Shown here: one piece after another, positions 9,148 through 16,206 of the stretch
Layout: every line of letters starts with the position of its first letter
How positions within the stretch are numbered: the stretch's first letter is position 1
IMG/VR virus record: IMGVR_UViG_3300047472_000152
Coordinates: 1-46,781 of that record
Length of the DNA: 46,781 nt
Source: a virus
Reading direction: 5' to 3' (one strand)
Translations under genes and position numbers: made by a program
Notes under the pieces: generated by a model
Told to the model about the DNA's origin: nothing
Databases searched by the model: none
The model's input: only the letters and a program-made list of their open reading frames with translations

Positions 9148-9170
9148 GCCGATAACGTTGCGGTCGGTCA
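9148..9170 (-). repeat. MTDRNVIG junction element, copy 1
   Basis: On the minus strand this reads TGACCGACCGCAACGTTATC-GGC and encodes MTDRNVIG followed by a stop, the GTG overlapping the preceding stop. It differs from the copy at 16183-16205 by one base (Asp for Glu codon). It lies 18 bases upstream of the ATG at 9130. Confidence 0.7.
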
Positions 9171-9218
9171 CTTGGCTTTCACGTACCTTTCCATCGCTCT
9201 GCGAACCATGTCGGTCAC
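9168..9218 (-). CDS. 16-codon frame resembling the end of a ribbon-helix-helix protein
   Basis: From GTG 9218 the peptide is MTDMVRRAMERYVKAK, preceded by GGGGGAG. The open frame extends upstream (TAEEKGETV) without a start codon, and the whole resembles the second half of a ribbon-helix-helix protein such as the one at 11461-11628. Either a remnant, or a frame entered from the HTH gene just upstream. Confidence 0.3.
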   Translation of the reverse strand: MTDMVRRAMERYVKAK

Positions 9219-9234
9219 CGTCTCCCCCTTCTCC

Positions 9235-9444
9235 TCAGCCGTCGCGTAGCCACCGTTGGATGGTGTTCGTGGAACGGCCAGTTATCTCCGCTATGTCACG
9301 AACAGAACCGCCCGCAGCGTGGGCGTCACGAACCGCCTGGGCCAGTTGGGTCTCGTAGCGGTCTTGTGAGCGGTGCGCTGCGCGCATGATGCGGAGGATG
9401 TGGGCGCGGTGTTCAGGCGGTGTGACATTTCTGGGTCGGCCCAT
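9235..9444 (-). CDS. Small HTH regulator
   Basis: 69 aa. A homeodomain-like HTH spans residues 40-66 (AAGGSVRDIAEITGRSTNTI followed by QRWL). The basic N-terminus (MGRPRNVTPPEHRAHI) may contact the minor groove. It is divergent from the rightward operon at 9524, and the 79-bp spacer contains a palindrome overlapping its own -10 element, so it probably represses itself and possibly the operon. Confidence 0.75.
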   Translation of the reverse strand: MGRPRNVTPPEHRAHILRIMRAAHRSQDRYETQLAQAVRDAHAAGGSVRDIAEITGRSTNTIQRWLRDG

Positions 9445-9452
9445 GCTGCAAC

Positions 9453-9503
9453 ACTATACGAATACGTTTCGTAGTTCCATCAGACACGCAACCAGCGTAT
9501 GAT
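9453..9503. promoter_or_regulatory. Divergent promoters with palindromic operator
   Basis: TACGAA/TTCGTA form a perfect 6-bp inverted repeat at 9457-9473. On the minus strand TATAGT (9458-9453) is a good -10 placing the transcript start within a few bases of the HTH start codon. On the plus strand TATGAT (9498-9503) is a good -10 for the operon starting at 9524. Neither has a consensus -35 element. Confidence 0.5.
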
Positions 9504-9523
9504 GTTTCTATGGAGGTAACCCA

Positions 9524-9820
9524 ATGACTATGCGTCTTATCGCGGATGACTCAGACCCACTCCCCTACAACGCTTTGCAGGAACGCGGGGAACAGCTCCT
9601 ACGGCAAGCCAGGGAAGCCGCAGCGGAGGCCATGGTCATGTCGGTGCAGCGGGAATTCTTCTTCCGCGGCGCGCGTATGAATCTCCGTGACGTTGAACGG
9701 GTCCGGTTGATGGCGAGGGAAGCCGCTGCGGGTTGGGTGGCGGTGGAGTCCGCGTTGGCGGAGTTGGGGAACGAGGTCGAGAAGACTAAACGATCAACAA
9801 TCCGTGGGGTAACCCAATGA
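9524..9820 (+). CDS. 98-aa helical protein, first gene of the cassette-linked operon
   Basis: Starts at ATG 9524 after GGAGGTAACCCA. Mostly helical with basic and acidic residues (LQERGEQLLRQAREAAAEAM, then RDVERVRLMAREAAAG). It ends RGVTQ because its last codons lie in the repeated junction sequence GGGGTAACCCAATGACC. Function unknown. Confidence 0.65.
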   Translation: MTMRLIADDSDPLPYNALQERGEQLLRQAREAAAEAMVMSVQREFFFRGARMNLRDVERVRLMAREAAAGWVAVESALAELGNEVEKTKRSTIRGVTQ

Positions 9821-14282: not shown

Positions 14283-14569
14283 GCTGACTGGCCTTTCAGG
14301 AATGCTTGCAGGACGGACGGATTGGTCGCTTCGATGTCCGCGAGGACTGCTGCCGCGTGAGCTACGGTCGCCGGGTCGCGGTACTTCCCCTGACCAGACG
14401 CGGTGCGTGCGATGCGGGACAGGGAGTCGGTGTCACCCAGACGGGCAGCTTCCTCGACAAGGAAGCGGTGCCCTGCAGCGTCGATGGACTGCACCAGCCG
14501 AACGAGCGGAATGTTCGGCTCACCAGGGGTGGCGTAGATGGACAGCGATTCAACTTCTGTGTTGGCCAT
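14279..14569 (-). CDS. LysA internal start product (C-terminal domain alone)
   Basis: Within lysA an in-frame ATG at 14569 (codon 401) is preceded by GGAGGAG with an ideal 6-base spacer. Initiation there would give a 96-aa protein MANTEVESLSIYATPGEPNI onward, exactly the C-terminal domain. Internal starts giving separate lysin products are known for mycobacteriophage Ms6 LysA and for clostridial phage endolysins. Here it is inferred from sequence. Confidence 0.5.
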   Translation of the reverse strand: MANTEVESLSIYATPGEPNIPLVRLVQSIDAAGHRFLVEEAARLGDTDSLSRIARTASGQGKYRDPATVAHAAAVLADIEATNPSVLQAFLKGQSA

Positions 14570-15769
14570 GAATAACTCCTCCAATGGGTCAGTTTCGGGA
14601 TCGAGCAGGTCGGCGTTGACCGCCAGGGCTTCGGTGTATCGGCGACGGCGATCGTCGATACCGGTCTGTCCGCCGTTGATGAGGCGGGTCGCTTCCTCGA
14701 GGTTTCGTGCGTCGGCGGCAGCGTTCAGACCGGAGCGCGCCACCTTCCAGTACCAAGCGAATCCGACGAACGCGAACGTGTCGGTGGCCAGCGCGTCGGG
14801 GTTGTCGACGAAGAACGTCGGAGAGGTCACGCCGGGTATCTGCACTTGGTAGGCCCACCGCGACAGGGACGAGTAGTTGTCCTTGCCTGTGATTTGCAGG
14901 AAATCCCGGCCGCGGTAGCGGAATCCGTCGCCGGGGTTGTTGTTCCCCATGCGCCCGTCGTAGGTGAGCTGCTGCTTTGTCGGACCCCAAATCTCGGTCT
15001 GGTACTCCAGGTCCACCGATTCATGCCCGAGTTGCGCGACAGCCATGGCTCTTCGGTCGATGGTGTTGATGTCGGCGACGTGGAACGCTTGAAGTAGCCG
15101 CGGGAGCAGGAATTCGCACCGCTGCACGGAGACGTTGCCGTGCATCAGATCTGCGAGGACTTGCGCGGTCAGACCGGATGTCGGTTCGATCGGGTTGGCC
15201 GGCGTCGATGGTTCGACTGCGGTGCCACCACCTCGCGGAACTCCGCCACGCTTGAACGTCGAGTACCCGTCCGCGCGGATCTTCCGATCAATAAAGGACT
15301 GCACCCTGGCGACGTTTTGGCTACCGTAGGTGTTGTAGCCCATCTGGAAGTGCATCGAATCCTTGGGGGTGTTCCAGTCGTTGCCCCAGAAAATCATGCC
15401 CTCGTACCAGGCGAGGAGTTCCCGCACGGCGGGTTCCTGCGATCCCTTGATGTAGATGGATCCGTTCCACCCGGATAGGGCCTTTCCCATGGGGTGGTCT
15501 GACCAGTTCCAGTCAACGGCTGTCGCGCCCTTGTGATTTGAGGTGTAGACGCTGTTGTCCTGCGTCCAACTACCCTCGTCGGCGTACCCGCGGCTGTTGT
15601 TGGCCGGCTCAATGTAGGCATCCATGTCGCGGAAGAACGCCTGCATGATTGCGTGCGGCTGTCCGCGTTGGATGAGCAGACTGAGCGGCGTTCCGGGGAT
15701 GGTGAGGTTGTCGCAGTCGCCCGGGTCGCACTCGGGCCAGCCGTCCTCCAGGATCATTCCGAGCGTCAT
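14279..15769 (-). CDS. lysA: Lysin A: M15 peptidase plus GH19-like domain
   Basis: 496 aa endolysin. Residues ~1-175 resemble an M15/VanY D,D-peptidase, with zinc ligands in NHKGATAVDWN (~80-88) and MHFQMG (~139). Residues ~200-390 resemble a GH19 glycosidase (LGHESVDLEYQTE; YRGRDFLQITGKDNY). The last ~96 residues are a separate helical domain likely to bind the cell wall and are preceded by an internal ribosome-binding site. Start ATG 15769 follows GGAGGTACTGAAGTAG, a strong site. It attacks peptidoglycan after holin triggering. Confidence 0.9.
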   Translation of the reverse strand: MTLGMILEDGWPECDPGDCDNLTIPGTPLSLLIQRGQPHAIMQAFFRDMDAYIEPANNSRGYADEGSWTQDNSVYTSNHKGATAVDWNWSDHPMGKALSGWNGSIYIKGSQEPAVRELLAWYEGMIFWGNDWNTPKDSMHFQMGYNTYGSQNVARVQSFIDRKIRADGYSTFKRGGVPRGGGTAVEPSTPANPIEPTSGLTAQVLADLMHGNVSVQRCEFLLPRLLQAFHVADINTIDRRAMAVAQLGHESVDLEYQTEIWGPTKQQLTYDGRMGNNNPGDGFRYRGRDFLQITGKDNYSSLSRWAYQVQIPGVTSPTFFVDNPDALATDTFAFVGFAWYWKVARSGLNAAADARNLEEATRLINGGQTGIDDRRRRYTEALAVNADLLDPETDPLEELFMANTEVESLSIYATPGEPNIPLVRLVQSIDAAGHRFLVEEAARLGDTDSLSRIARTASGQGKYRDPATVAHAAAVLADIEATNPSVLQAFLKGQSA

Positions 15770-15904
15770 CTACTTCAGTACCTCCACTGAATGCACAGAC
15801 ATCAGGGCCTGTTGGGTTGGCGTGTACGCGCTCATCTGCGAGGCGAGTCGTTCCATGCGTTCGGACGCTGCGATGGGGATGCCGTCAAAGCAAAGGACAT
15901 GCAC
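15770..15904 (-). CDS. 44-aa protein immediately before lysA
   Basis: GTG 15904 with GGAAGG eight bases upstream. Sequence MHVLCFDGIPIAASERMERL continues SQMSAYTPTQQALMSVHSVE. The stop TAG is directly followed by the lysA ATG, so it shares its message. No family is recognised. Confidence 0.55.
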   Translation of the reverse strand: MHVLCFDGIPIAASERMERLASQMSAYTPTQQALMSVHSVEVLK

Positions 15905-15923
15905 GGCGTGGTCCTTCCATGCG

Positions 15924-15951
15924 AAAACCCCCGAACCTGGGGTTCGAGGGT
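15924..15951 (-). terminator. Leftward terminator between accessory island and lysis genes
   Basis: On the minus strand ACCCTCGAACC pairs with GGTTCGGGGGT (one G-T) across a three-base loop, followed by TTTTCGC. It would end transcripts of the tiny-gene cluster (last stop 16004) before the lysis genes, or act as an attenuator. Confidence 0.65.
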
Positions 15952-16003
15952 CTTAGCGGGTGGGGATATTCAGTTAGAGAACTACCGATATGGCGGACCT
16001 ACG

Positions 16004-16168
16004 TCAGGCTTCGTAGGACGGCGCGTCGTGGCGGTCCCAGTAGCCCGCACAATCGGCCATGCCGTCGAGCGTGCCGGATACTCCGTATAGCCACAGGTGA
16101 AGCCGTGAGAACTGGTCGCCGGTCCTGCGCGCCAGCACGCCAAGCCAGTTCAGTATCTCCGCTTTCAT
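16004..16168 (-). CDS. 54-aa hypothetical protein
   Basis: MKAEILNWLGVLARRTGDQF continues with aromatic, helical sequence (SRLHLWLYGVSGTLDGMADC) to SYEA. The ATG overlaps the 13-codon frame upstream (ATGA), and AGAGAGGA serves as ribosome-binding site. Downstream of the third TERNVIG element. Function unknown. Confidence 0.6.
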   Translation of the reverse strand: MKAEILNWLGVLARRTGDQFSRLHLWLYGVSGTLDGMADCAGYWDRHDAPSYEA

Positions 16169-16206
16169 GTCGTCCTCTCTGTGCCGATAACGTTGCGTTC
16201 GGTCAT
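16165..16206 (-). CDS. 13-aa peptide MTERNVIGTERTT
   Basis: ATG 16206 overlaps the stop of the gene upstream (ATGA) and the TGA overlaps the next ATG (ATGA), so this tiny frame exactly bridges two genes. Its first eight codons are the repeated element. May be a leader peptide or a coupling device. Confidence 0.4.
   Translation of the reverse strand: MTERNVIGTERTT
16183..16205 (-). repeat. MTERNVIG junction element, copy 3
   Basis: The minus strand reads TGACCGAACGCAACGTTATC-GGC, one base different from copy 1 and identical over 21 bases to copy 2. As in the other copies, a start codon with its ribosome-binding site follows within about 20 bases. Confidence 0.7.

Follow-up and report, generated by a model that had tools for sequence, protein, structure and literature searches.

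A short oriented repeat ahead of small-gene starts in a mycobacteriophage-like genome and in dissimilar mycobacterial phages and prophages

Introduction

What does a short, nearly invariant sequence do when it recurs just ahead of unrelated small genes in one phage genome? The question is raised by an IMG/VR virus record of 46,781 bases (hereafter the window, meaning this whole stretch), a temperate mycobacteriophage-like genome with a portal about 82% identical to those of Mycobacterium phages such as Soul22 and Avani. A sequence-only reading of this record had described three near-identical copies of an element and offered a mobile junction cassette, a regulator-binding site or a conserved leader peptide as explanations. 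What start-associated repeats do in mycobacterial phages has been an open question since 2011, in part because reports of the start-associated sequences (SAS) came essentially from one phage cluster.

Results

Three copies in the window

The window contains the 14-mer CGCAACGTTATCGG at exactly three places (Table 1), and the near-identity described earlier is exact, since the 21-nt sequence ACCGA[A/C]CGCAACGTTATCGGC differs among the copies at that single base only. Copies A and C match at 87% over 31 nt, and copies B and C at 96% over 25 nt. Each 14-mer lies, as had been noticed, just upstream of a start codon, at a distance of 18, 14 and 15 nt for copies A, B and C, respectively. The TGA at copy A closes a short upstream ORF, and a 75-aa ORF upstream of copy C ends with the TGA at 16203–16205. 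At copy B this stop is absent (GCAACC versus TGACC in A and C), and the upstream gene reads through the element. Relatives of that gene are found in Gordonia phage SoilAssassin (gp56) and in the viral contig G017; the Gordonia relative ends in MLDRILDGGVS followed by a stop, which the window gene has lost. This loss of the stop, with the resulting C-terminal extension, is consistent with the joining of a junction to a gene.

In an unbiased scan, 12-mers occurring at least three times at gene starts of the window belonged only to the element and to a second repeat, GGTAACCCAATG; being one of only two such repeats, the element is not a chance recurrence. A fourth look-alike at 10932–10984 is much weaker, and its score falls in the range where the null also gives matches. 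The proteins encoded downstream of element sites are mostly small and mutually unrelated in blastp comparisons, and a search of viral contigs for relatives of the 107-aa protein downstream of copy A found none.

Table 1. Positions of the element copies, neighbouring genes and landmark genes in the window
Feature	Position	Strand	Remarks
Antirepressor-like gene	3157–3963		
Integrase	5159–6391		
Gene downstream of copy A	8807–9130	−	107 aa, CxxC pairs; no family match
Copy A, full junction	~9128–9170	−	TGA 9168–9170, element, AAAGGA, ATG 9128–9130
Copy A, 14-mer CGCAACGTTATCGG	9149–9162	−	31.4 bits in the matrix
Second start-associated repeat, GGGGTAACCCAATGACCACCGA / GGGGTAACCCAATGACC	9803, 10277, 10474	+	weaker at 9935 and ~9513; span 9513–10498
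Gene upstream of copy B	10488–10646	+	52 aa, HGDMTP family
Copy B	10608–10621	+	32.8 bits; SD AGGAG; ATG at 10636
Gene downstream of copy B	10636–10713	+	25 aa, cysteine-rich (MECDCECDPCRNGDCDECWTDGGVW)
Possible decayed fourth copy	10932–10984	+	MTDQQQRPAIGTGVNDG and stop; GTGACTGATCAGCAGCAACGCCCAGCTATCGGCACAGG...ATGG; 10.1 bits
Lysin A	14279–15769		
Gene downstream of copy C	16004–16168	−	54 aa; directly upstream of lysin A
Copy C	16184–16197	−	35.1 bits; SD GAGAGGA; ATG 16166–16168

Other repeats occur in the vicinity. The second start-associated repeat recurs at three to five small genes in a row and overlaps stop and start at three places, where it encodes the terminal RGVTQ of the upstream gene, with its stop, and the MT of the next; viral contigs contain one further exact match (L286). 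The divergent small-gene region lies between two terminator-like hairpins of very similar sequence, at 8752–8782 and 11073–11102 (GCCCCCGTCAC...GTGACGGGGG). The divergent gap at 9445–9523, between an HTH gene (9235–9444, minus strand) and the plus-strand array, contains an inverted repeat, TACGAATACGTTTCGTA, as a possible operator. A perfect 21-nt direct repeat, AGGGCAGGAGAAGCCATGACG, containing an SD-like GGAG and ATG, is located at 7226–7246 and 7408–7428 on the plus strand. Another phage-specific start-associated repeat, GGACCTCGGGGA, is present at three nearby small-gene starts (16214, 16375 and 16578, minus strand) of the contig L240 (G003).

Spread among mycobacterial phages and prophages

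CGCAACGTTATCGG or relatives with the core GTTATCGGC are present between a stop and an SD/start in five or more groups of mycobacterial phages or prophages that are dissimilar in sequence. Among the matches listed in a viral-contig scan for the bare 14-mer, most looked random; many IMG/VR matches and most GTDB matches came from low-GC sequences or unrelated hosts, appeared chance-like and were left uncounted. A scan demanding an SD and a start returned 22 stretches, and the GC-rich mycobacterial-type ones hold the element between genes. These include G002 (2862873970), a prophage contig of M. colombiense GF28; G004 (2724679285), with an identical stretch in M. canariasense (L190); G007 (2821251827), with two copies that recur in genome G410; G009 (3300010373_000403); G017 (2808606555); and G003, G005, G006, G008 and G010. 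Some IMG/VR and GTDB records represent the same prophage and are not to be counted twice. Shared sequence and ORFs group the records as the window with G003; G002, G006, G009 and G014; G004 and G010; and G007, G016 and G017, with G005 and G008 standing apart, and several bearers have little nucleotide sequence and few genes in common. Hosts were named from GTDB titles only (M. colombiense, M. canariasense); the remaining bearers presumably infect mycobacteria as well. The cluster F-like relatives of the window contain no exact copies, only scattered matches with one or two mismatches. A blastn search of isolated phages with the element and its G017 form gave weak, unrelated matches only, and a literature search for the core sequence yielded, among the matches listed, only unrelated primers and sequences.

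A weight matrix was built from start-associated seeds (38 collected, clearly false ones removed) and then iterated. With a threshold of 14 bits it found 50 sites in 22 records and none in a same-size Markov-1 null; at 40 of these sites an SD and a start come next. The seeds fixed GTTATCGG, the SD and the start, however, so that part of the conservation and start association in these figures follows from the way the matrix was made. The Markov null and the genome and orientation controls offset this bias in part, the latter two being less exposed to it than the matrix. TTATCGG is start-associated at 40 of its 101 occurrences (14 records), compared with 3/30 for its reverse, 1/30 for its complement and 1/101 for its reverse complement. 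Across 396 Mycobacterium genomes, the start-associated 14-mer was found seven times, in three genomes with two or three copies each, and the reversed control was never found; the bare 14-mer occurs there 22 times, and none of the other chromosomal copies inspected is associated with a gene start. The sequence-only reading had named two grounds for abandoning its proposal, a lack of start enrichment among related genomes or restriction to this single phage; neither was found, and the SD/start scan, the matrix and the orientation count all place the element at gene starts in other phages.

Anatomy of the element

The element is oriented with transcription and has a recurrent plan: the stop of the upstream gene (often as TGAC or GACRTAA), a few bases, CCgCaa(n)GTTATCGGC, an SD and the start of the next small gene. 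The upstream stop is located between −12 and −3 of the 14-mer at 26 of 42 sites, and at 15 of the 42 it stands exactly at −8 (TGA, then C) or −6 (TAA in GACRTAA). The distance from the element to the start ranges from 11 to 35 nt, with a mode of 15. The contig G017 carries seven copies in 1.7 kb (31.5–29.8 kb), several of them as TTGACGTAAATCCCCCAAGTTAACGGCAAGGAG. Near 30830 and 29595 of its minus strand the arrangement is GAGAGGATTATC[A/G]GCATG, with the TTATC core (TTATCRGC) after the SD rather than before it. At 30974 of the same contig, TTGACGTAA is retained where the upstream gene stops at TGA instead of TAA, so this part, too, appears to be conserved as nucleic acid. Variants differ by phage, for example CCCCAAGTTAACGG in G017 and CGCTCGGTTATCGG in G004.

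Conservation of DNA rather than peptide

The sequence-only reading had proposed comparing synonymous and non-synonymous variation, and this comparison indicates that the DNA, not the peptide, is conserved. Across five codons of 37 distinct sites there are 31 non-synonymous codon changes against eight synonymous ones, seven of which fall in the last codon. A start codon stands at the position of the supposed methionine in 8/37 sites, any in-frame start is present in 13/37, and an in-frame stop falls within 9 nt before the element in 12/37 (10 TAA, 2 TAG). In copies A and C, "MT" is TGA plus CC, overlapping the stop of the upstream ORF and read out of frame. The open frames themselves exist as described, but their 8–13 codons are expected by chance. 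The suggested palindromic core, AACGTT, is not conserved either, since AAC varies across the matrix sites and GTTATCGG stays, which rules it out as an operator core.

Junctions and array turnover

Homologous genes are flanked by different junctions. In G017 the element flanks the HGDMTP gene on both sides, and in the window this gene has GGGGTAACTCAATGACC before and the element after; the gene at 8384–8525 of G009 is followed by the element, and in G003 its homologue is flanked by GGACCTCGGGGAGCGAC-type repeats. Which junction a gene carries thus depends on the phage as much as on the gene itself. The related phages G016 and G017 align over 12.9 kb, but within the array region the nucleotide-level match of G016 is limited to about 670 bp, which indicates that the arrays turn over fast. 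Recombination between copies may cause this turnover; the cluster O mycobacteriophages considered below offer a parallel.

Searches for a mechanism

Analysis of 35 ungapped sites revealed no consensus RNA fold, a further test for RNA structure gave z-scores of −0.45, 0.98 and −0.84, and pairing of the motif with 16S rRNA was no better than that of shuffled motifs, so no concrete translational mechanism is supported. Sigma-70 −10/−35 hexamers matched three times within 8600–16700, a count not above shuffles, and none coincides with a copy, so that no sigma-70 promoter was found at the copies. A blastp comparison (E < 1e-3) found no DNA-binding or non-structural protein common to all bearers. 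Taken together, the lack of promoter, fold, 16S pairing and common protein favours a host-side reader or a role in translation or processing over a single phage repressor.

Discussion

Interpretation

The reading that fits best, to which we assign a probability of roughly 0.55, is that of a cis element associated with gene starts and oriented with transcription, functioning as DNA or RNA rather than as peptide, which would have spread as a gene-junction module and would resemble, without being identical to, the SAS of cluster K phages. As a signal, it would enable expression of the small gene that follows it in a compact operon, most probably at the mRNA level as a translation-initiation or intercistronic processing site. 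Homologous recombination between copies would swap small genes and leave both neighbours expressible, because the same junction holds the stop and the ribosome site. Counting against this reading, the spacing to the start is looser than that of SAS, and at the two G017 sites near 30830 and 29595 the core follows the SD. Two of the three original proposals are thereby narrowed rather than discarded: a junction module or an oriented cis signal survives, and a regulator site stays compatible with the data. We would go further only tentatively and suggest that the stop–box–SD–start unit is a cross-lineage module read by a mycobacterial host factor, through which unrelated phages could trade ready-to-express small genes without a dedicated recombinase.

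A stoperator-like function, in which a phage repressor binds an asymmetric DNA site and silences small-gene operons in the prophage, is a possible but clearly less probable explanation. The element is asymmetric, oriented, intergenic, close to stops and starts and present in several copies in temperate phages and prophages, which are traits of cluster A stoperators as well, and the phage-to-phage variants in G017 and G004 are what a diverging trans factor would be expected to leave. The copies are, however, clustered in small-gene arrays rather than spread genome-wide, and the protein comparison revealed no candidate repressor in all bearing records, though diverged repressors could escape blastp. 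The stoperator consensus is GGTGGMTGTCAAG. This 13-bp sequence, expected of stoperators in more than 20 copies, has no exact copy and one single-mismatch copy in eight records, so by sequence the element is not a stoperator.

The idea that the copies are pure recombination linkers with no regulatory role, that is, remnants of shuffling in which GTTATCGG is kept from recency alone, is doubtful. Copies A and C have flanking bases in common, the two CGCTCGG copies of G004 are alike over about 25 nt upstream, the junctions around homologous genes are phage-specific, and cluster O phages are inferred to have recombined at repeats flanking small genes. Against it, the same 8–9 nt core is found in phages otherwise dissimilar in nucleotide sequence, and the adjacent bases drift, which points to selection on the core. 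It is unlikely, and slightly more so, that GTTA[T/A]C acts purely as an RNase or mRNA-end signal that would free the 5′ ends of cistrons with no direct part in ribosome binding; such a signal would need no common phage factor and would suit the placement between stop and SD. A conserved leader peptide MT(E/D)RNVIG, coupling or attenuating translation, is barely credible: the frame is open in all three window copies and the TGA of the mini-frame overlaps the next ATG in copy C and some others, but neither a conserved start nor synonymous drift was found.

Comparison with known systems

The start-associated element invites comparison with several kinds of phage repeats. T4-type phages have mobile promoter/stem-loop cassettes at small-gene junctions, proposed to drive shuffling. 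Those cassettes hold a promoter and a stem-loop, whereas the copies described here lack promoter-like hexamers and structure. In cluster O mycobacteriophages, 17-bp palindromic repeats occur in many intergenic positions, with about one third inside genes, and recombination has been inferred between short repeats flanking small genes (PMC4351075); the many intergenic copies and small-gene flanks are shared features, but the cluster O repeats are palindromic and unoriented, unlike the oriented element. Cluster A stoperators are short, asymmetric, oriented intergenic sites present in many copies, with a known binding protein, the phage immunity repressor (PMC9283540). The element is likewise an asymmetric intergenic site oriented with transcription, but its sequence is different and no binding protein was found for it.

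The SAS/ESAS of cluster K include a 13-bp sequence, GGGATAGGAGCCC, typically 3–7 bp from the start and present, when up to two mismatches are allowed, in 11–19 copies per genome; a role in translation initiation or intercistronic processing has been suggested for them but not proven (PMC3203893; survey, PMC12699233). Both are short, asymmetric, multi-copy repeats, oriented with the genes and placed just upstream of the starts of a diverse subset of unrelated non-structural genes. The element described here is CCGCAAnGTTATCGGC, however; it lies mostly before the SD, at 11–25 nt from the start, often abuts the upstream stop and is common to dissimilar phages. A search of eight records for GGGATAGGAGCCC found no exact and no one-mismatch copy, and one to three two-mismatch copies each, about as many as expected by chance. 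In sequence and spacing the element is thus not an SAS; in position and orientation, the cluster K SAS are the closest kind. A different SAS-like element in dissimilar phages and mycobacterial prophages makes comparative and reporter tests possible, and ties start-associated repeats to the way in which phages gain and lose small genes in working order.
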